Positions 14,738-24,729 are shown, counted from the stretch's first letter. The stretch: 64,000 bases of DNA from Aliiruegeria lutimaris (GCF_900099935.1 NZ_FNEK01000024.1:1-64000); one strand, 5' to 3'. Numbers and translations are program-made. The notes: a model not told the origin generated them from the sequence alone.

Positions 14738-14912
14738 AAGCGGAAAGGCCTACCGGCAGAAATTGCTGTCGATGGGCCTGACGCCCGGCGCCGAGATCAG
14801 CGTGACCCGCGTCGCACCGATGGGCGACCCGGTTGAAATCCGCGTGCGCGGTTTTGCCCTGACCCTGCGCAAGACCGAGGCCGATGCGCTCGACGTGCGG
14901 AAAGTCTCGTAA
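14676..14912 (+). CDS. feoA: FeoA-domain protein, second copy
   Basis: 78 residues, the classic FeoA size. MNAKLKDLAVGDRAVVVGF opens the domain, then YRQKLLSMGLTPGAEISVTRVAPMGDP and the EIRVRGFALTLRKTEA segment follow. The ATG at 14676 lies inside the end of the first copy, with AAGGGGAA upstream. The stop overlaps the feoB start as TAATG. The two copies are clearly diverged from each other, so this is an old duplication rather than a recent one. Confidence 0.92.
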   Translation: MNAKLKDLAVGDRAVVVGFAESGKAYRQKLLSMGLTPGAEISVTRVAPMGDPVEIRVRGFALTLRKTEADALDVRKVS

Positions 14913-17230
14913 TGGCCGATCTGACCATTGCCATCGCCGGCAACCCGAATTGCGGCAAGACCACGCTTTTCAACGCCCTGACCGGCACGCATCAGCATGT
15001 CGGCAACTGGCCCGGCGTAACCGTCGAAAAGAAGGTCGGGGATTTCCGCCACAGGGACATCAAGGTCGAACTGGTGGACCTGCCCGGAGTCTATTCCCTC
15101 AGCGTGGCTGGCGGTGCGACCTCGCTCGATGAACGGTTGGCGCGGGACTATCTCGTCTCCGAGAAGCCCGACCTCGTCATCAACGTGCTCGACGCCTCCA
15201 ACCTGGAGCGCAACCTCTACCTCACTGTGCAGCTGCTGGAGATCGGCGGGCCGATGGTGGTGGCGCTCAACATGATGGACGTGGCCAAGGGGCGCCATAT
15301 CGAGATCGATATCGCCAGGCTCTCCGGGCATCTGGGCTGCCCGGTCGTTCCGCTCGTGGCCGCCAGCGGCAACGGCGTCGATGCGCTGGTAGATGCGGCC
15401 GTTCAGACGGCGCGGGATGGCAAGACGCCCTCTGGCGACGTGGAATTCGGGCCGGAGCTGGAAACGGCCATCGCGCAACTCTTGCCGGCCATCGTCGGCT
15501 CCATCGAGAATGCATCGCCCCGCTGGTTGGCCATCAAGCACCTGGAAAGCGACGAGCTCTGCCCCGCGATGACCGACCCGGCGCTGCAGGTTCCCGTTGC
15601 CCAGGCGCAGGCCGACCTGGAAGAAGCGGTCGAGATGGACGCCGACACGGCGATCGCCTGCGGCCGCTACGATTTCGTCACCCGCATCGCCGCCGACAGC
15701 ATGCGCAGGACGACCGAGTTGACCCAGACCATGTCGGACCGGCTCGACCGGATCGTTCTCAGCCGCGCCGCGGGCATCCCGTTCTTCCTGCTGGTGATGT
15801 ACCTGATGTTCATGTTCACTATTAACATCGGCGGCGCATTCATTGATTTCTTTGATATTCTTGCCGGCACGCTCCTGGTGGAAGCGCCCGCGGCACTGTT
15901 CTCCGCCATCGGACTGCCGGACTGGCTCAACACGCTCCTGAGCACCGGCATCGGCGGCGGCATCCAGACGGTGGCAACTTTCATTCCCATCGTCGGCTTC
16001 CTGTTCCTGTTCTTCTCAGTGCTGGAGGATTCCGGCTACATGGCCCGCGCGGCCTTTGTCATGGACCGCTTCATGCGGATGATCGGCCTGCCGGGAAAAA
16101 GTTTCGTGCCGCTGATCGTGGGCTTTGGCTGCAACGTGCCGGCGATCATGGCGACGCGCACGCTCGAAAACCAGCGCGACCGCACGCTGACGATCATGAT
16201 GACGCCTTTCATGTCCTGCGGCGCGCGCCTGCCCGTCTATGCCCTCTTCGCCGCCGCCTTCTTCCCCACCGGCGGGCAGAACCTCGTTTTCGCGCTCTAC
16301 CTGATCGGGCTGGGCGCGGCCGTCGGCACCGGGTTGCTTTTGAAAATAACTTTGCTTCAGGGCGAAACCGCGCCCTTCGTGATGGAGCTGCCGCCCTATC
16401 ACCTGCCCACCCTGCGCGGGCTGCTGCTGCGCACATGGGAGCGGCTGAAAACCTTCATCATCGATGCTGGTCGGGTGATCGTGGCCATGGTGCTGGTGCT
16501 GACCTTCCTCAATTCCTGGGGCATGGATGGAAGCTTCGGCAACGAGGACAGCGACAATTCCGTGCTCTCCGAGATCGGACGCAGTTTGACGCCGGCTTTC
16601 GGGCCGATGGGGCTGGAGGAAGACAACTGGCCGGCAACAGTCGGCATCTTCACCGGCATTCTTGCCAAGGAGGCTGTGGTCGGCACGCTGAACACGCTCT
16701 ACGAGGGCATGTCGCAGGCTGGAGATGACGACGCGGGAACCTTCTCGCTGGGCGCAGGCGTGGCGGAGGCTTTCGGCACCATCGGGCCCAACCTGCGCGA
16801 CGCGTTCGGCATGGCGACGGACCCGCTGGGCCTAGATGTCGGCTCCATTGAGAACATGGAACTGGCAGCCGAGGAGCAGGAGGTCGCCGTGGGCACCTTC
16901 GGCACCATGGTCAACCTCTTCGACGGCAAGATCGGCGCCTTTGCCTACCTGCTGATGGTGCTTCTCTATATGCCCTGCGCGGCGACGATTGGGGCGATCT
17001 GGCGGGAAACCAACCTCGGCTGGACCATGTTTGCCGGCTTGTGGACGCTCGCGCTCGGCTACGGCTCGGCTGTTCTGTTCTACCAACTCGCCAGCTATGG
17101 TGCCCACCCCGTCGCGTCGATGCTGTGGATCGGTGGCATCGCCCTGGCCTTTGCCGGTTTCTTCCTTCTGCTGCGGTGGATCGGCAAACGCGATCAGGAC
17201 AATAGCGTGCCCGTCACCATCGCAGAATAG
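14912..17230 (+). CDS. feoB: Ferrous iron transport protein FeoB
   Basis: 772 residues. The N-terminal G domain shows G1 GNPNCGKTT (residues 10-18), G3 VDLPGVYSL near 52 and G4 NMMD near 120. A helical GDI-like segment follows, then the polytopic permease with the two Gate regions; GFGCNVPAIMATRTL and MSCGARLPVY are typical. Near the C terminus is a strongly acidic insert around residues 590-650. It takes up Fe(II) across the inner membrane. It is translationally coupled to feoA and followed after 8 bases by feoC. Confidence 0.97.
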   Translation: MADLTIAIAGNPNCGKTTLFNALTGTHQHVGNWPGVTVEKKVGDFRHRDIKVELVDLPGVYSLSVAGGATSLDERLARDYLVSEKPDLVINVLDASNLERNLYLTVQLLEIGGPMVVALNMMDVAKGRHIEIDIARLSGHLGCPVVPLVAASGNGVDALVDAAVQTARDGKTPSGDVEFGPELETAIAQLLPAIVGSIENASPRWLAIKHLESDELCPAMTDPALQVPVAQAQADLEEAVEMDADTAIACGRYDFVTRIAADSMRRTTELTQTMSDRLDRIVLSRAAGIPFFLLVMYLMFMFTINIGGAFIDFFDILAGTLLVEAPAALFSAIGLPDWLNTLLSTGIGGGIQTVATFIPIVGFLFLFFSVLEDSGYMARAAFVMDRFMRMIGLPGKSFVPLIVGFGCNVPAIMATRTLENQRDRTLTIMMTPFMSCGARLPVYALFAAAFFPTGGQNLVFALYLIGLGAAVGTGLLLKITLLQGETAPFVMELPPYHLPTLRGLLLRTWERLKTFIIDAGRVIVAMVLVLTFLNSWGMDGSFGNEDSDNSVLSEIGRSLTPAFGPMGLEEDNWPATVGIFTGILAKEAVVGTLNTLYEGMSQAGDDDAGTFSLGAGVAEAFGTIGPNLRDAFGMATDPLGLDVGSIENMELAAEEQEVAVGTFGTMVNLFDGKIGAFAYLLMVLLYMPCAATIGAIWRETNLGWTMFAGLWTLALGYGSAVLFYQLASYGAHPVASMLWIGGIALAFAGFFLLLRWIGKRDQDNSVPVTIAE

Positions 17231-17238
17231 GAAGCGCC

Positions 17239-17496
17239 ATGATGTTGATGGAAATCCGGGCCTACCTGAAACTGCACGGCTCGGCGAATATTCTCGACCT
17301 GTCCAACCATTTCCGCGTGTCGCCGGACGCGCTGCGCGGGATGCTCCAACACTGGATCGCCAAGGGCGAGGTCGTCCGGCACGATTTCTCCGGCAGTTGC
17401 GGCGACTGCCACAGCTCCGGCCATTGCTCCGGCTGCGGGACCGCGGCGAGTTTCGAGGTCTACGAATGGCATGAGGTGGTACGGCGGGCTGTCTGA
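17239..17496 (+). CDS. feoC: FeoC-like winged-helix protein
   Basis: 85 residues. The N-terminal half is a small winged helix (EIRAYLKLHGSANILDLSNHF..SPDALRGMLQHWI.KGEV), as in FeoC. Four cysteines (C54, C57, C63, C66) form a cluster that can hold an iron-sulfur centre. FeoC proteins bind the FeoB G domain and protect or regulate it. The position directly after feoB supports the call. Confidence 0.88.
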   Translation: MMLMEIRAYLKLHGSANILDLSNHFRVSPDALRGMLQHWIAKGEVVRHDFSGSCGDCHSSGHCSGCGTAASFEVYEWHEVVRRAV

Positions 17497-17577: not shown

Positions 17578-17595
17578 CTGTCACATGCCCGTTAC
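17578..17595 (+). promoter_or_regulatory. Possible Pho box upstream of the PhoX-like gene
   Basis: CTGTCAC-ATGC-CCGTTAC fits the PhoB pattern of two 7-base direct repeats (CTGTCAT type) separated by four bases. The first half is near perfect and the second matches five of seven positions. It is 73 bases upstream of the start of a PhoX-family gene, where phosphate control would make sense. Confidence 0.5.
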
Positions 17596-17668
17596 CCGGC
17601 TCTGCTCAATGGGGCCCAGCGCGACTTAGCGGCGATGTTGCCGCCGAATCCAGCCAACGGAGACATAC

Positions 17669-19225
17669 ATGAAAACGTCCATTGCCTCTGCTCTTCTTCT
17701 GACGAGCGCCCTGACCGCCCCAGCCTTTGCCGAAAGCCTGACCCGCGTGGCCACCGTCCCGCTTGGCGGCGAAATCACCGGAATGTTCCAGCAGGGCGAA
17801 GACCTGTTCTTCAACGTCCAGCACCCCGCCAACGATCTGGCCAACGAATTCGCCAAGGCAACCGTGGGCGTGATCGCCAATGCCGATTTCTCTGGCCGCG
17901 CGCTGGCCGTTGCGGAGGGCGACGACAGGAAACGCGTCAAGTCCTCCTTGGGCGCATACCAGATCCTGTTCCAGGAAGGGGATTTCGGCAAGATTGGTCA
18001 CATCGTCGGCGCCGGCGGCGAGATCAAGGTGTCCAACGACCCCGACTTCAACGCCTATGTCGCCACCGGCGACGCCGAAGGATACCTCTTCACCAACTGG
18101 GAAGACCGCCCCGGCGGCATGTCCCGCGTCAAGCTGATGCGCGCCGCGGACGGCACCTATTCGGTCGACGAAGCCGACGCGATGATGATCGACTTCTCCG
18201 CCGTTCAGGGCACTTGGGTCAACTGCTTCGGCACGCTGTCGCCGTGGTCCACCCCGCTGACCTCCGAAGAACTCTATTTCGACGACACCGCCGACTGGAA
18301 CAACCCCAACTACAAGTATATCGACGGCGTCGAGGACCTTGCCAGCTATGTCGGTGCCTGGCCGAACCCCTACCGCTACGGCTACATCGTCGAGATCACC
18401 GATCCCGCAGGCAGCGCCACCCCGGTCAAGCACTTCTCCATGGGCCGCTACAGCCACGAAAACTCGGTCGTCATGCCCGACGACAAGACGGTGTATCTCT
18501 CCGATGACGGCACCAATGTGGTCTTCTACAAGTTCGTCGCCGACGCGGCAGGCGACCTCTCGGCCGGCACGCTCTACGCCGCGAAGATGACCCAGTCCGC
18601 CGAGTCCGGCGCCGATGCCGCCACCACCGGTTTCGATATCGAGTGGATCGAGTTGGCCTCCGGCAACAATGCCGAAATCGAAGGCTGGATCGCCGAGTAT
18701 GACGGCATCACCACGGACGACTACAAGGCCGATGCCACCTCCTACATCTCCGATGAGGATGTTGCCGCCTGGGCCGCCGGAGAGGCCGCCGACAGCCGCG
18801 TTGCCTTCCTCGAAAGCCGCAAGGCCGCGAGCGCCAAGGGGGCGACCGCCGAATTCCGCAAGATGGAAGGCGTGAACATCAACTATGCCGCGGCCAAGGA
18901 TGGCTCGGTTCCGTTCATGTACATGGCGATGTCGGAAGTGGCCAAGGGCATGTCGGACGCCGAGGGCGACATCCAGGTGTCCGAGGTCAAGTGCGGCGTC
19001 GTCTACGAGTTCCCGCTCGAAGCCGACTACAACACGACGAAAATGGTCCCGGTCGTTGCCGGTGGCGCCTATGACAAGAACGCCGAGGCCAATGCCTGCA
19101 ACGTGGACGCCATCTCCAACCCGGACAACCTGCTGGTGCTGTCCAATGGCGACGTGCTGATCGGCGAAGACACCGGCGCGCACGAGAACAACGCCATGTG
19201 GCTGTGGAGCAAAGGCTCGATGTAA
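17669..19225 (+). CDS. PhoX-family (DUF839) periplasmic protein
   Basis: 518 residues with a Sec signal peptide cut after about A21 (APAFA|ES). The mature protein reads as a DUF839/PhoX beta-propeller. It has the family-like FFNVQHPAND near residue 47, the HENSVVMPDDKTVYLSDDG stretch near 270, and a late PDNLLVLSNGDVLIGEDTG block that resembles the metal-site strand of PhoX. PhoX enzymes are calcium- and iron-dependent alkaline phosphatases, often Tat-exported and longer. This one is short and Sec-exported, so phosphatase activity is probable but not certain. A two-heme cytochrome gene follows after 75 bases. Confidence 0.82.
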   Translation: MKTSIASALLLTSALTAPAFAESLTRVATVPLGGEITGMFQQGEDLFFNVQHPANDLANEFAKATVGVIANADFSGRALAVAEGDDRKRVKSSLGAYQILFQEGDFGKIGHIVGAGGEIKVSNDPDFNAYVATGDAEGYLFTNWEDRPGGMSRVKLMRAADGTYSVDEADAMMIDFSAVQGTWVNCFGTLSPWSTPLTSEELYFDDTADWNNPNYKYIDGVEDLASYVGAWPNPYRYGYIVEITDPAGSATPVKHFSMGRYSHENSVVMPDDKTVYLSDDGTNVVFYKFVADAAGDLSAGTLYAAKMTQSAESGADAATTGFDIEWIELASGNNAEIEGWIAEYDGITTDDYKADATSYISDEDVAAWAAGEAADSRVAFLESRKAASAKGATAEFRKMEGVNINYAAAKDGSVPFMYMAMSEVAKGMSDAEGDIQVSEVKCGVVYEFPLEADYNTTKMVPVVAGGAYDKNAEANACNVDAISNPDNLLVLSNGDVLIGEDTGAHENNAMWLWSKGSM

Positions 19226-19257
19226 TCGCCCCTTTCCAACGGAAATGACGACATTGG

Positions 19258-19279
19258 AGGGCGGGGAAATTCCCGCCCT
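19258..19279 (+). terminator. Hairpin between the PhoX-like and cytochrome genes
   Basis: AGGGCGGG-GAAATT-CCCGCCCT is a perfect 8-bp stem in the 75-base gap. It has no T-run, so it more likely attenuates or protects the upstream message than fully separates the two genes. Confidence 0.4.
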
Positions 19280-19300
19280 ACCTGCCTTACGGAGACCACG

Positions 19301-20914
19301 ATGAAACGCGCGCCCCTGCTCCCCCTTTTCTTGCTGATGCCGCTGGCGGCCATCGCCGAAGACCTTTCCGGACTCGGCGAGAGCGACCTGATGCAGCGCC
19401 GACCGCGCTCGCAGGATGTCGCCGCCGCCGGTCGCATCTACAACCCCGAAGCACCGGTTCCACCGCAGTGTTACACCCGGATCGAGGGGCGCCATAACCC
19501 CTGCTATGTCTGCCACCAGGGTAATGACGACCGGACCCGGACCAATTTCATGCAGGATGGCGACCTGCAGGCCGAATATGCCTTCTCGGAGGCGGGGCTG
19601 ACCAACCACCACGTGAACCTCTTCGTGGACCGCTCCGCCGAGGTGGCCGCGATCTCGGATGCGGAAATCCTCGAATGGACCCGTGGCGACAATTACTCGG
19701 ATCTCAGCGGCCGCCTGGAGGCCGCGGGCTTCGAGGGTTGGATCCCCGATCTCGCGGGTTATGAGAATGCCGCCGAGGCTTTCGACGCGAACGGGCTGGC
19801 GCGAGACGGCTCGTGGTGGGTGGCTTTCAACTACAAGCCGCAGCCCTCGACCTTCTGGCCCACGAACGGCTCCACCGACGACGTGCTGATACGCCTGCCC
19901 GCGCCTTTCTACACGACCCAGAGCGGCGTTGAGAGTCGCGATGTGTATTTCGCCAATCTCGCGCTTTTGGAAATGGCCTTCCAGGATCTGGACCGCGTCT
20001 CGCTTCCGCCCGTGGATGAAACCGTGATTGGCGTGGATATCGACGACGACGGCGCGCTTGGCATGGCGTCCGAGATCGACCGTCGGGAAACCTATCTCGG
20101 CGCGGCCAGCGCTGAGCCGGTCATCCGCATGAATTATCCCGAACGGACGGATTTCCTCCATTCGGTCCGCTATGTCGGCATAAACGAGGATGGGTCGATC
20201 AAACCGGCGCGGCGGATGAAGGAGCTGCGCTACATGGTCAAGTCGCGCCAGCTCTCCATCGCGGCGCTGGCCTCGCGCTATGGCAACGAGATCCAGGAGA
20301 AGCTCGACGAGAACCTGCCCCGCTATATCGATCTCGGCGACCGGGGCATGGACAACGGCATGGGCTGGACGCTGCTGGCCTGGATCGAGGATGAAACCGG
20401 CGCGCTCCGCCGGCAGCCCAACGAGGAGACGTTCTTTTGCCGCGGCTGCCACACCTCCGCCGGGGCCAATATCGACCAGACATGGGCCTTCCCGCGCAAG
20501 ATGACCGGCGTGGCGGGCTGGGGCTATATCGACCTCAGGAGCCAGAAGGACGTGCCCAATATCGGCGAGGAGATGGGCGAGATCGCGCTCTACCTGCAAC
20601 GTGCGGGCGGCGGCGACGAGTTCCGCTCCAATACCGAGATGCTGGAACGCTGGTTCAAGGAAGATGGCAGCATCGACATGGAAGCGATAGCGGGCAAGAG
20701 CGTCTACGATCTGATCGCGCCCTCGCGCGAACGCGCGCTGATGCTCAACAAGGCCTACCGCGTCCTGGTCGCAGAGCAGAGCTTCCTGTTTGGTCGCGAT
20801 GCGACGGTGACACCGCCGGTCAACGTGCATGCCCGGATCGACGAGGCCACCGCCCCCACGCTGCCGCCGGAACATCGCTACTCGCACGACATCCGGCTGA
20901 ATTGGGCGGAGTGA
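19301..20914 (+). CDS. Exported two-heme c-type cytochrome of unknown function
   Basis: 537 residues with a Sec signal peptide (about 19 residues, ending AIA). Two heme-attachment motifs are far apart: CYVCH (C68-H72) and CRGCH (C380-H384). The roughly 300 residues between them contain no further CxxCH and hold many aromatic and acidic residues, including GVDIDDDGALG near 244, which could bind a divalent metal. I do not recognise a named enzyme family. The size and layout suggest a catalytic or electron-accepting periplasmic protein rather than a simple carrier. The neighbours are the PhoX-like gene upstream and a broken small cytochrome gene downstream and convergent. Confidence 0.75.
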   Translation: MKRAPLLPLFLLMPLAAIAEDLSGLGESDLMQRRPRSQDVAAAGRIYNPEAPVPPQCYTRIEGRHNPCYVCHQGNDDRTRTNFMQDGDLQAEYAFSEAGLTNHHVNLFVDRSAEVAAISDAEILEWTRGDNYSDLSGRLEAAGFEGWIPDLAGYENAAEAFDANGLARDGSWWVAFNYKPQPSTFWPTNGSTDDVLIRLPAPFYTTQSGVESRDVYFANLALLEMAFQDLDRVSLPPVDETVIGVDIDDDGALGMASEIDRRETYLGAASAEPVIRMNYPERTDFLHSVRYVGINEDGSIKPARRMKELRYMVKSRQLSIAALASRYGNEIQEKLDENLPRYIDLGDRGMDNGMGWTLLAWIEDETGALRRQPNEETFFCRGCHTSAGANIDQTWAFPRKMTGVAGWGYIDLRSQKDVPNIGEEMGEIALYLQRAGGGDEFRSNTEMLERWFKEDGSIDMEAIAGKSVYDLIAPSRERALMLNKAYRVLVAEQSFLFGRDATVTPPVNVHARIDEATAPTLPPEHRYSHDIRLNWAE

Positions 20915-20960: not shown

Positions 20961-21240
20961 TCACGCGCGGTCGAGATCCCTCAGATACGCCTGCAACGCC
21001 TGAATCTCCTCTTCGGTGAAATCGAATTCCGGCATCTGGTCAAATCCCGGCAAGGCCCGGTCAAGCGCGCTGCGGTTGGCGCCCCGGATATCGGGCGCGG
21101 CATCATCGTCGCGTCTCGCCTGCCTCACCGTGGCAGTCGATGCAGTTCTCCGTGTAGAGCCATTTTCCGGAGGGAGCCTCCTGCGCCGTGAGCGCTCCGG
21201 CGGCAGCAAGAAGAAGAAGCGTCAGGGTCAGTCGTCTCAT
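20961..21240 (-). pseudogene. Small c-type cytochrome, frameshifted
   Basis: From ATG 21240 the frame gives a signal peptide (MRRLTLTLLLLAAAGALTA), then GKWLYTENCIDCHGEAGET with a CxxCH heme motif, and stops at 21103. The rest of a class I monoheme cytochrome continues in another frame: PDIRGANRSALDRALPGF, MPEFDFTEEEIQALQAYLRDL (the methionine-ligand region and last helix), ending at 20961. The shift is close to 21110-21118. Joined, the product would be about 92 residues. Either the gene is broken or the read has an indel. It points toward the two-heme cytochrome gene and may be its redox partner. Confidence 0.75.
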
Positions 21241-21502
21241 GGTCGGTTCCGTTTGGGCGGCGCGTCGCCGCCTAGCTAGCGGCAGTACATGTGATTTTCG
21301 TGATGCTTTCCCGCAAACCTGCCATGTGCGCAGCGGAACGCTGCGCCCGCGCATTTTCACAATCTGTCCCAAAATCCTCGTCTGAGACAGGAATCTTGCC
21401 GTTCCGCCCCCCGGTTGGAGAGCCATTGTGTCGCGGAAACCGGATGACCGGCTTGCGGATCGCAAACGGTTTCGGCATGTGGCTGACGACAAGGAGAAAC
21501 GG

Positions 21503-22000
21503 ATGACCGTCCTCACGACAAGCGCCGCACGGATACACTCCCTCACCCGCCGTATCTGCCAATTCCTTCTCGGTTTGATCTTTATTGGCCAGATGGCCGT
21601 GGTCATCCTTCGCTATGTATTCGGCGTGGGGTTCATCGAGTTGCAGGACGCCATCGCCTACAGCTTCGCCGCACTGGTGGTTCTGGGGCTTCCAGTGGCG
21701 CTGGTGCTCGATTCCCATGTGCGGGTCGATGTCATCCGCACGCGCCAGTCCGAGGCCACGAAGAAATGGTTCGACCGTTTCGGCACCGTTTTCTTCCTGA
21801 TCCCCGTCTTCGGGCTGACGATCTGGTGGGTCTGGCCCGACATCGCCTTTTCCTGGTCGATCCGCGAACGCTCCGTGGAAACGGGCGGCTTGCCGGGGCT
21901 CTACCTGGTCAAGACGACGCTGCCTGTCGCCTGCGCCCTGATGATCCTGCAGGGGATCGCAGGCTTCGTCGCCTCTTTCGAAAGACCCAAAGATGATTGA
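21503..22000 (+). CDS. dctQ: TRAP transporter small permease subunit (second system)
   Basis: 165 residues from ATG 21503, preceded by AAGGAGAAA. Four membrane helices lie near residues 18-38, 50-70, 93-113 and 135-155, as in DctQ proteins. It overlaps the following dctM by eight bases. The order Q-M-P is typical of TRAP systems whose binding protein is of the TakP (2-oxo-acid/lactate) type, which is the type encoded downstream. No distinct promoter element was identified in 21241-21502. Confidence 0.9.
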   Translation: MTVLTTSAARIHSLTRRICQFLLGLIFIGQMAVVILRYVFGVGFIELQDAIAYSFAALVVLGLPVALVLDSHVRVDVIRTRQSEATKKWFDRFGTVFFLIPVFGLTIWWVWPDIAFSWSIRERSVETGGLPGLYLVKTTLPVACALMILQGIAGFVASFERPKDD

Positions 22001-23609
22001 GCATTTCTGGCTGATCGTTCTCGGCCTGAGCCTGCTGGGCGGCATTCTTTCGGGCATTCCCGTCATGCTGATCCTGTCGGGCGTGCCGGTGGCCGTCTCT
22101 TTCATTGCCGCCGCTTTCGGTGCCTTCGACCTGAGCTTCCTGCAGGCCTATCCGCAACGCGCCTTCGGCGTGATGCAGAACTCGCTTCTGGTCGCCGTGC
22201 CGCTCTTCGTGCTCATGGGCGTGCTGCTGGAACGCTCGCGCGTGGCCGAACGCACGCTGATGCAGGTCAGCCGCCTGCTGGGCGGCAGCCCGCGCGCGCT
22301 GGCGCTCTCCGTGCTCATGATCTCCACGCTGATCGCCGCCTCGACCGGCATCATCGGCGCCACCATCGTCATGCTCGGGCTGATCAGCCTGCCGGCGATG
22401 CGCCAGGTCGGCGTGCCCGACAGCACCGCGAGCGGCTTGATCTGCGCCTCCGGAACGCTGGGGCAGATCATTCCCCCCTCCATCGTCCTGATCCTGCTGG
22501 GCGATCAGGTCTCCAACGCCTATCTGGACGCGCAACAACGCGCGGGCAATTTCGCCCCCGATGCCGTCACCGTGGGCGATCTTTTCGCCGGGGCCCTGCT
22601 GCCCGGCCTGCTGCTGGTGGCGCTTTACGGACTGTTCGTTACGGTCCGCCTCGCCCGCACCCCGGCAAAGACAAACGTGGTAACCGACCCGATCGGCCCT
22701 TGGGAATTCGTCCGCGAAGTCCTGCCCCCCATCCTGCTCATCCTCGCCGTGCTCGGCTCGATCCTCGCCGGCGTTGCCACGCCCACCGAGGCCGCGGCCA
22801 TCGGCGTTGCGGGTACGCTGCTGATCACCGCGGCCCGCGTCAGCGCGGCCAGCGACACCCAATCCCTGCCCGGCGGCCCGCAGGCCCGGGCGCCCGGCGA
22901 CCGCAGCAGCCCGGCCTGGCTCCGCCATGTCATGACAGCGACCGCCGTGGTCGGCTTCGGGCTGGTGATACTGCGCCTCTCCGGCGTTGCCCGCATCAAC
23001 CTCAACGCCGCCGAGATCAGCTTCTCGGGCGGCTCGCTGCTGGCGCTGGCGATGACCGTCATGCTGGTGACCGGCCTGATCATCGCGGTCGTCGTGCTGA
23101 CCCGCGCCGGCGTCTTCGGCGACGCGCTCGCACAGGCGGCCCGGATCTCGGCGATGATCTTCGGCATCATCCTTGCCGCCTCCATGCTGTCGCTCGTCTT
23201 CCGCGGTTTCGGCGGTGACGAATGGGTGCATGAGCTGCTGAGCAACCTGCCCGGCGACCACACCACCATGCTGCTCTTCACCCTCCTGGTGATCTTCATC
23301 ATGGGCTTCATCCTCGAATTCATCGAGATCGTCTTCATCGTGATCCCTCTGGTCGGCCCGATCCTGCTGCAGGATATCGACCCGGTCTGGTTCGCCGTTC
23401 TGGTGGCGCTCAACCTCCAGACCTCGTTCCTGACACCGCCCTTCGGCTTCGCCCTGTTTTACTACCGCTCTGCGGCCCCGGAAGAGATCAAGACAACGAC
23501 CATCTACAAGGCCGTCATTCCCTTCGTGCTGATCCAGGTGATCACGCTCGGAGTGGTGTTCTTGTGGCCACCGCTTGCGACATGGCTGCCGCAGGTACTG
23601 TTCGGATGA
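21993..23609 (+). CDS. dctM: TRAP transporter large permease subunit (second system)
   Basis: 538 residues, longer than the 430-residue norm and typical of the extended DctM subunits that go with TakP-type systems. The extra length is a middle segment (about residues 275-330) holding a polar stretch (SDTQSLPGGPQARAPGDRSS) and an added helix pair. Family patches include LFVLMGVLLERS near 72, SASTGIIGATIVMLG-like sequence near 110, GQIIPPSIVLILLGD near 160, and LTPPFGFALFYYR near 480. It imports a carboxylate with ion coupling. Confidence 0.93.
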   Translation: MIEHFWLIVLGLSLLGGILSGIPVMLILSGVPVAVSFIAAAFGAFDLSFLQAYPQRAFGVMQNSLLVAVPLFVLMGVLLERSRVAERTLMQVSRLLGGSPRALALSVLMISTLIAASTGIIGATIVMLGLISLPAMRQVGVPDSTASGLICASGTLGQIIPPSIVLILLGDQVSNAYLDAQQRAGNFAPDAVTVGDLFAGALLPGLLLVALYGLFVTVRLARTPAKTNVVTDPIGPWEFVREVLPPILLILAVLGSILAGVATPTEAAAIGVAGTLLITAARVSAASDTQSLPGGPQARAPGDRSSPAWLRHVMTATAVVGFGLVILRLSGVARINLNAAEISFSGGSLLALAMTVMLVTGLIIAVVVLTRAGVFGDALAQAARISAMIFGIILAASMLSLVFRGFGGDEWVHELLSNLPGDHTTMLLFTLLVIFIMGFILEFIEIVFIVIPLVGPILLQDIDPVWFAVLVALNLQTSFLTPPFGFALFYYRSAAPEEIKTTTIYKAVIPFVLIQVITLGVVFLWPPLATWLPQVLFG

Positions 23610-23664
23610 CACGGAAATGCGCAAACCGGAACGGGGTGAGGAGCCCCTCATTGGGAGATAGAAG

Positions 23665-24729
23665 ATGAAACGTCGTGCATTCCTCAAGAGCGGTGTTCTC
23701 GCCGCTCCGGCCGCCGCGCTCGCGGCGCCCGCGCTCGCCTCGGGCGTGATCGAGTGGAAATGTCCCACCGCCTTCCCGGCCAAGGCGCCAGGGATCGGGA
23801 CGAACGCGACCTCCTTCGTGGACCGCGTCAACAAGATGGCCGAGGGCCGGCTCAAGCTGAAGCTCTACTCGGGTGGCGAACTGGTCCCGCCTTTCGCCGT
23901 CGAGGATGCCGTCCAGCAGGGCACTGCCGAGATCGGCCACACCACCGCCTATTACGCCGCCGGCAAGAACTCGGCGCACCACTTTTTCACCACCATCCCC
24001 TTCGGCCTGACCGCGGGCGAGGTCGGCGCCTGGCTGCGTTTTGGTGGCGGGCAGGAGCTTTATGACGAGATCTACGGCCAGCGGGATCTCGTGCCCTTCA
24101 TGTGCGGCAACACCTCCGTGCAGGCTGCCGGCTGGTTCAAGAACGAGATCACCAGCGTCGAGGACCTGTCGGGCCTCAACATGCGCATCGCGGGCCTCGG
24201 CGGCGAGGCCATGCGCAAGCTGGGGGTGAACGCGGTGTTGCTGCCGCCCACCGAGATCTTCCCCGCCTTCCAGTCGGGCGCCATCGACGCGACCGAATGG
24301 GTTGGCCCGATGCTCGACCTGGCATTCGGCATGAACAAGGTGGCGGACTACTGCTATGCCCCGGCCTTCAGCGAGCCCGGCTCCGGCCTGCATGTGGTGG
24401 TCAACAAGGAGGCCTGGGCGAGCCTGACCCCGGATCTTCAGGAGATGATCCGCTCCGCGGCCAGCGCCTGCGAGATCGAGAACATCAACCGCTTCGAATA
24501 TTTCAACGCACAGGCGTTCAAGGCGCTGCAGGAAGCGGGCGTCCAGTTCAAGACCTTCCCCGAGGATGTGCTGGCCGCCCTCAAGACCGCCTCGGCTGAA
24601 GTTCTGGCGGAGCAGGCTGCGGCCAATCCGGATTTCGCCAAATGCCTCGAGAGCTACAACGCCTATCTTGAGTTGGCCCGCCCGTTCAACGCCGCTTTCG
24701 CAGCCCAGTCGCTGCTGCAACGCGTCTGA
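23665..24729 (+). CDS. TRAP transporter substrate-binding protein, TakP-like, copy 1
   Basis: 354 residues. The leader KRRAFLKSGVLAAPAAALAAP has a twin-arginine motif, so it is probably exported folded by Tat. The mature part fits the TakP/lactate-binding branch of DctP-type proteins: a GELVPPFAVEDAVQQGTAEIGHT-like stretch near 72, and FQSGAIDATEWVGPM near 202, where the 2-oxo-acid or lactate metal site lies in characterised members. It is the third gene of the QMP operon. A second gene about 79% identical over its full length follows after the repeat element. Confidence 0.93.
   Translation: MKRRAFLKSGVLAAPAAALAAPALASGVIEWKCPTAFPAKAPGIGTNATSFVDRVNKMAEGRLKLKLYSGGELVPPFAVEDAVQQGTAEIGHTTAYYAAGKNSAHHFFTTIPFGLTAGEVGAWLRFGGGQELYDEIYGQRDLVPFMCGNTSVQAAGWFKNEITSVEDLSGLNMRIAGLGGEAMRKLGVNAVLLPPTEIFPAFQSGAIDATEWVGPMLDLAFGMNKVADYCYAPAFSEPGSGLHVVVNKEAWASLTPDLQEMIRSAASACEIENINRFEYFNAQAFKALQEAGVQFKTFPEDVLAALKTASAEVLAEQAAANPDFAKCLESYNAYLELARPFNAAFAAQSLLQRV

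Follow-up and report, generated by a model that had tools for sequence, protein, structure and literature searches.

Why should a phosphatase be encoded beside a large heme protein? The question arises in Aliiruegeria lutimaris, a member of the Rhodobacteraceae/Roseobacteraceae group whose nearest relative is Aliiruegeria sabulilitoris (95% protein identity). In its genome a gene for a PhoX-family protein is followed by a gene for an exported protein with two c-type heme motifs, here called CYT. PhoX is one of the major marine alkaline phosphatases, and we know of no established route by which its iron-calcium centre is assembled. The features of the locus are listed in Table 1 by their positions in the window, the whole stretch of 64,000 nucleotides that was analysed. 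We conclude that phoX and CYT very probably constitute a module of two exported proteins under Pho control. The best explanation as a whole, to which we assign a probability of about 0.45, is a Pho-induced phosphatase module in which CYT would act as the dedicated redox partner of PhoX.

Table 1. Features of the phoX-CYT locus and its surroundings in the window.
Feature	Position	Strand	Basis or remark
feoA	14357-	+	
feoA, second copy	14586-	+	
feoB	14912-17230	+	
feoC	17239-17496	+	
Pho-box-like direct repeat, CTGTCAC and CCGTTAC separated by atgc (CTGTCACatgcCCGTTAC)	17578-17595	+	91 bp 5' of the phoX ATG
Weak third Pho half-site, CTCTGCT	17600-17606	+	
phoX, PhoX-family exported protein, 518 aa	17669-19225	+	Pfam, PDB, AlphaFold/Foldseek, permutation test
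Sec-type signal peptide of PhoX, MKTSIASALLLTSALTAPAFA, without twin arginine	17669-17731	+	sequence
PhoX residues 22-60 (GGEITG...FFNVQHP), blade segment found at the C-terminus of ordinary PhoX	17732-17848	+	profile/PDB match
CYT, exported two-heme c-type protein, 537 aa, Sec signal	19301-20914	+	two CxxCH motifs
CYT heme motif 1, C68YVCH72, closely preceded by invariant C57	19502-19516	+	
CYT putative P460/c'-beta-like core, residues 136-408	19706-20524	+	structure and profile comparison
CYT His287 codon, at the P460 cross-linking-lysine position	20159-20161	+	profile alignment
CYT heme motif 2, C380RGCH384, inside the P460-like core	20438-20452	+	aligned with P460 CxxCH
Small monoheme cytochrome c gene, convergent to phoX-CYT	20961-21240	-	tblastn and sequence
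TRAP transporter dctQMP	21428-24729		

The initial annotation described the first protein as a short, Sec-exported member of the PhoX family. Its family and its Sec signal are borne out. The protein matches Pfam PhoX (PF05787) with E=1.8e-36 and 126.8 bits against a cut-off of 24, and it matches PDB PhoX in a sequence search with E=1.7e-10. Its AlphaFold model (pLDDT 83.4, pTM 0.86) is a six-bladed beta-propeller, for which the best Foldseek matches are the PhoX structures 4a9v (E=7.5e-15) and 3zwu. The shortness, however, is misleading, as the protein proves to be a circular permutant. When a profile of length 585 built from 30 stand-alone PhoX proteins was run on the window PhoX, profile positions 179-353 aligned with residues 178-335 and positions 515-554 with residues 23-60, in reversed order; residues 513-556 of PDB PhoX likewise correspond to the N-terminal blade segment. 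When the sequence of the window PhoX was doubled, one profile match began at residue 178, spanned the junction and ended at residue 578. Reversed blade order was found in all eight permuted proteins tested, and the normal order is clear in four of five canonical heme-linked PhoX proteins and weakly visible in the fifth, from locus L026. We conclude from these alignments that the window PhoX is circularly permuted, its last propeller blade having moved to the N-terminus; the permutation test rules out reading it as a truncated PhoX.

Partners of permuted PhoX cluster in the CYT tree, with 4 changes compared with 16.7 when the labels are shuffled. In locus L191 a permuted PhoX adjoins a CYT of the canonical-partner clade, a mismatch that points to either a partner swap or a second event. 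A separate PhoX-like group of 640-850 residues (loci L110-L117), mostly with Tat-like lipoprotein signals, has no accompanying heme protein of the CYT type, and a different two-heme gene lies near L110 and L111. These divergent PhoX proteins have the usual blade order, and the permutation is thus seen only together with the heme partner in the sample examined.

Permutation appears to have left the active site intact. In a rotated alignment with stand-alone PhoX, with Pseudomonas fluorescens numbering matched to 3zwu, all 30 permuted PhoX proteins aligned retain the residues at C179, E194, E273, D292 and E387, and 26 of them also the one at R385; the window PhoX has all six. We take C179, E194, E273 and E387 to be residues of the PhoX iron/calcium site, and R385 and D292 are described as active-site residues in PMC11098088. 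The window PhoX is a predicted Fe/Ca-dependent phosphomonoesterase. Among the canonical heme-linked PhoX proteins the cysteine is absent in 3 of 13, and the distant partners (Verrucomicrobiota and the L026 type) are without some PhoX residues, so not all pairs can have one chemistry. The L026 PhoX also bears a PEP-CTERM-like tail.

The window PhoX thus resembles P. fluorescens PhoX (3zwu, 4a9v; PF05787) in family, modelled six-bladed propeller, site residues and putative Pho-box control, but differs in its permuted blades, in its use of Sec rather than Tat, and in always having a two-heme neighbour or co-resident. A second point of comparison is Psip1 of picocyanobacteria, which like the window PhoX is a non-standard iron-calcium beta-propeller phosphatase, from low-phosphate marine bacteria; in the available text of PMC11098088 it has no overall sequence identity to PhoX and no heme partner is seen, whereas the window PhoX is heme-linked and clearly homologous to PhoX.

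The export route separates the heme-linked enzymes from their relatives. A Tat motif is present in none of 50 heme-linked PhoX proteins, which carry Sec or lipoprotein signals instead (the start codon being uncertain for L026, L041, L044 and L171), whereas all 30 stand-alone PhoX proteins sampled have a twin arginine, 23 of them matching the strict Tat motif and 7 judged by eye. Tat substrates fold prior to export (PMC3197622), and since the heme-linked PhoX proteins do not carry Tat motifs they would have to take up their metals after export. This Sec/Tat contrast is our main reason for favouring a maturation or redox-poise role of CYT over that of an independent enzyme, although other metalloenzymes are metallated unaided in the periplasm, and Sec export alone is therefore no proof that a maturase is required.

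CYT had been noted as an unrecognised 537-residue exported protein with CxxCH motifs about 310 residues apart. The motifs, C68-x-x-C71-H72 and C380-x-x-C383-H384, are 312 residues apart, and the protein does not correspond to any well-described enzyme in the databases searched: Pfam and NCBIfam gave no match above cut-off and no named family, PDB sequences no credible match, and PHROGs no match. The annotation of Pseudoalteromonas xiamenensis lists it as a 'hypothetical protein' beside an 'alkaline phosphatase PhoX'. Across 53 distinct homologues 62 residues are invariant, many of them charged, as one would expect of an enzyme more than of a simple electron carrier. They include C57, both heme motifs, R290, R305, K307, E308, R310, Y311, W356 and H287, the last being the sole invariant histidine outside the two heme motifs. 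In L022 and L026, and also in L023, CYT has extracellular-looking versions with long C-terminal extensions, which in L026 contain thrombospondin type 3 repeats.

The search for remote homologues that the initial annotation proposed yielded no named family, as above, but profile and structure comparison gave weak scores to a P460/c'-beta-like core. The structure model of CYT has a mean pLDDT of 64, its better part spanning residues 136-408, with no confident model for the N-terminal heme part or the C-terminal 130 residues. For the core of this pLDDT 64 model, the 14 best VIA-align entries are all P460 or c'-beta proteins (9hrk_A with Z 5.4 over 132 residues, a Z under 8), and Foldseek places such proteins at ranks 1-4. 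Comparison of the CYT and P460 profiles gave E=1.2e-4, calculated for a single comparison, with a probability of 55%; the window CYT matches Pfam P460 (PF16694) at E=0.0076, below cut-off, as do, weakly, 14 of 20 CYT members. CYT may have a P460/c'-beta-like core fold. It would then share with that superfamily (6hiu, 9hrk, 6amg, 6hih; PF16694) a similar core with a CxxCH at its end, but where these are small single-heme proteins CYT has 537 residues and a second heme domain. In the profile alignment the column of the P460 cross-linking lysine (Lys106 of NsP460; PMC11928373 Table 2) holds the invariant His287 of CYT, and that of the distal carboxylate (residue 131) the invariant Arg310. As CYT on this alignment is without both defining features of catalytic P460, we do not class it as a P460.

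These features bear on two other roles for CYT. P460-fold proteins include heme enzymes that oxidise hydroxylamine (PMC11928373), and in CYT a conserved pocket, predicted to be charged and with His287 and Arg310 invariant, replaces that of P460; together with Pho-box control this could indicate a two-step pathway, in which CYT would oxidise a small molecule, a phosphorus-containing or phosphorus-linked substrate, and PhoX would hydrolyse the phosphoester, or the reverse. We consider such a pathway unlikely, given that the cross-linking lysine and distal carboxylate of P460 are not conserved in CYT and that no dehydrogenase, transporter or phosphonate gene is seen in common among the neighbourhoods. 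The suggestion of phosphonate scavenging likewise gains no support, as phosphonate genes were not recognised next to phoX and CYT in the neighbourhoods inspected. The same fold also occurs in cytochromes c'-beta, which bind NO and CO (PMC11928373), and CYT, co-inherited with phoX, might instead sense gases or redox state, or scavenge peroxide, and so guard the oxygen-exposed iron centre of PhoX without building it. We judge this distinctly unlikely, because the distal pockets of known c'-beta proteins are mostly hydrophobic and that of CYT is predicted to be charged, and because CYT has two hemes rather than one.

The maturation role that we prefer has a parallel elsewhere. MauG is a heme enzyme encoded beside methylamine dehydrogenase, the one protein that it matures. 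The resemblance of CYT to MauG-type diheme enzymes would be one of idea only, namely that a protein with two hemes serves the one exported enzyme encoded next to it; the predicted fold is different, and CYT gave no match to MauG or diheme peroxidase families in Pfam or NCBIfam at E up to 1.

Conservation of the gene pair in other genomes, which the initial annotation had put forward as a check, is found across phyla. After removal of near-copies there are 53 distinct CYT loci, in Alphaproteobacteria, Gammaproteobacteria and Verrucomicrobiota, and in 48 of them phoX adjoins CYT on the same strand, lying downstream of it in 4 of the 48 and upstream in the rest. In the five loci with no adjacent phoX the genome holds PhoX elsewhere, and PhoX is present in every checked genome that carries CYT. 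The distribution of CYT is sporadic: it occurs in 7 of 100 relatives, in 9 of 345 genomes of the family, in 8 of 398 Pseudomonadota genomes (about 2% of the sample) and in 27 of 194 genomes of one gammaproteobacterial order (14%), and also in a Verrucomicrobium (Roseibacillus). Two genomes carry a pair of CYT genes from different clades, each with its own PhoX neighbour in one (L184 and L191, genome G541) and with a PhoX neighbour for one only in the other (L189 and L192, genome G660). PhoX and CYT divergence are correlated, with r=0.94 for 31 permuted pairs and 0.90 for 13 canonical pairs, and none of 2000 permutations gave a value as high. Such matching divergence is expected of genes that travel together and partly reflects common ancestry; on its own it does not establish that the two proteins are in contact.

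The Pho-box-like repeat reported upstream of phoX also stands: it is conserved and strand-specific in relatives, and the same genome has PhoB, above cut-off. Its layout agrees with the definition of the Pho box as two 11-nt repeats (PMC4415409). The window site is the sole match of at least 12/14 to CTGTCAY-N4-CTGTCAY on either strand of the 64 kb; by the strict Escherichia coli consensus CTGTCAT-N4-CTGTCAT it scores 10/14, not above chance, and its support is therefore comparative. Relatives have CTGTCAY-type heptamers in 11-bp steps upstream of phoX, in most cases at 65-160 bp from the start codon, with four in tandem in L025. As the relaxed consensus, which allows C or T at the seventh base, was picked after the first set of loci had been seen, the fair tests are a second set and a pst control. 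For the first set the score was 245, where shuffled sequences gave 199±3.6; once start codons had been adjusted these values became 257 and 210.5±3.8. The independent second set scored 282 against 230.5±4.0 for shuffles (maximum 243), with the reverse strand at chance (233); both sets include some close relatives, so that the apparent significance is overstated. The control is an operon adjacent to phoB whose ORF layout resembles that of pst; it starts with TTGTCATcaatCTGTTACactgGTGTCAC, containing two overlapping 12/14 sites, the only ones in 17 kb; the pstS model TIGR00975 found no match in this genome. By these sequence comparisons the phosphate linkage of phoX-CYT is well supported.

The position of the feo genes raises a further possibility. 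PhoX binds iron, and feoA-feoA-feoB-feoC lie directly upstream of the pair in the window and in L011, as they might in an iron module in which CYT was a ferroxidase and PhoX a PhoX-like iron binder. Such a module is highly improbable: feo accompanies the pair in these Aliiruegeria-like genomes and in no other locus tested, and the Pho box, which sits between feoC and phoX, is conserved before phoX in loci without feo. We conclude that the feo genes are outside the phoX-CYT module. The small cytochrome c gene was rejected as a third core gene, since it is found in few close relatives only, and is accessory at most. Its copy in the window has a frameshift near 21100-21120, which would make it a pseudogene or reflect a sequencing error; it is intact in L011, L012 and L017. 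In another genome of the same genus (locus L048, G007:C14:58000-72000) the entire phoX-CYT pair is disrupted by frameshifts, a recent loss.

A redox-helper role for CYT is plausible, and the preferred reading could operate as follows. On phosphate starvation PhoB would induce both phoX and CYT. PhoX would leave through Sec in an unfolded state (in many Gammaproteobacteria as a lipoprotein) and would acquire its iron and calcium once outside the cytoplasm. CYT would oxidise Fe(II) while the Fe(III)-oxo-calcium centre is being assembled, or keep the PhoX iron ferric, or both, with small c-type cytochromes accepting the electrons. Ordinary PhoX, folded in the cytoplasm before Tat export, would have no such need for a redox partner. 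That CYT is the redox-maturation partner of PhoX we advance tentatively, at somewhat less than even odds. The most specific form of the proposal, in which CYT is a P460-fold enzyme with a new His/Arg distal pocket and, outside the cytoplasm, builds the Fe(III)-oxo-calcium centre into a permuted PhoX exported by Sec, must be considered doubtful.

The literature that we searched, which excluded most subscription papers, contains no description of the phoX-CYT pair or of a permuted PhoX. The PhoX and P460 folds are already known; what we did not find described there is how they are combined, the permuted blade order, export through Sec and the altered heme pocket. The locus brings to light a large family of heme proteins that lacks annotation, as well as a metalloenzyme that is circularly permuted in nature, and it offers a natural comparison, in which equal active-site residues are found with another export route and an added redox protein. 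If the most specific form of the proposal is true, CYT would be the first redox maturase known to be devoted to an iron-calcium phosphatase, and the pair would represent another solution than folding the enzyme first and exporting it by Tat.
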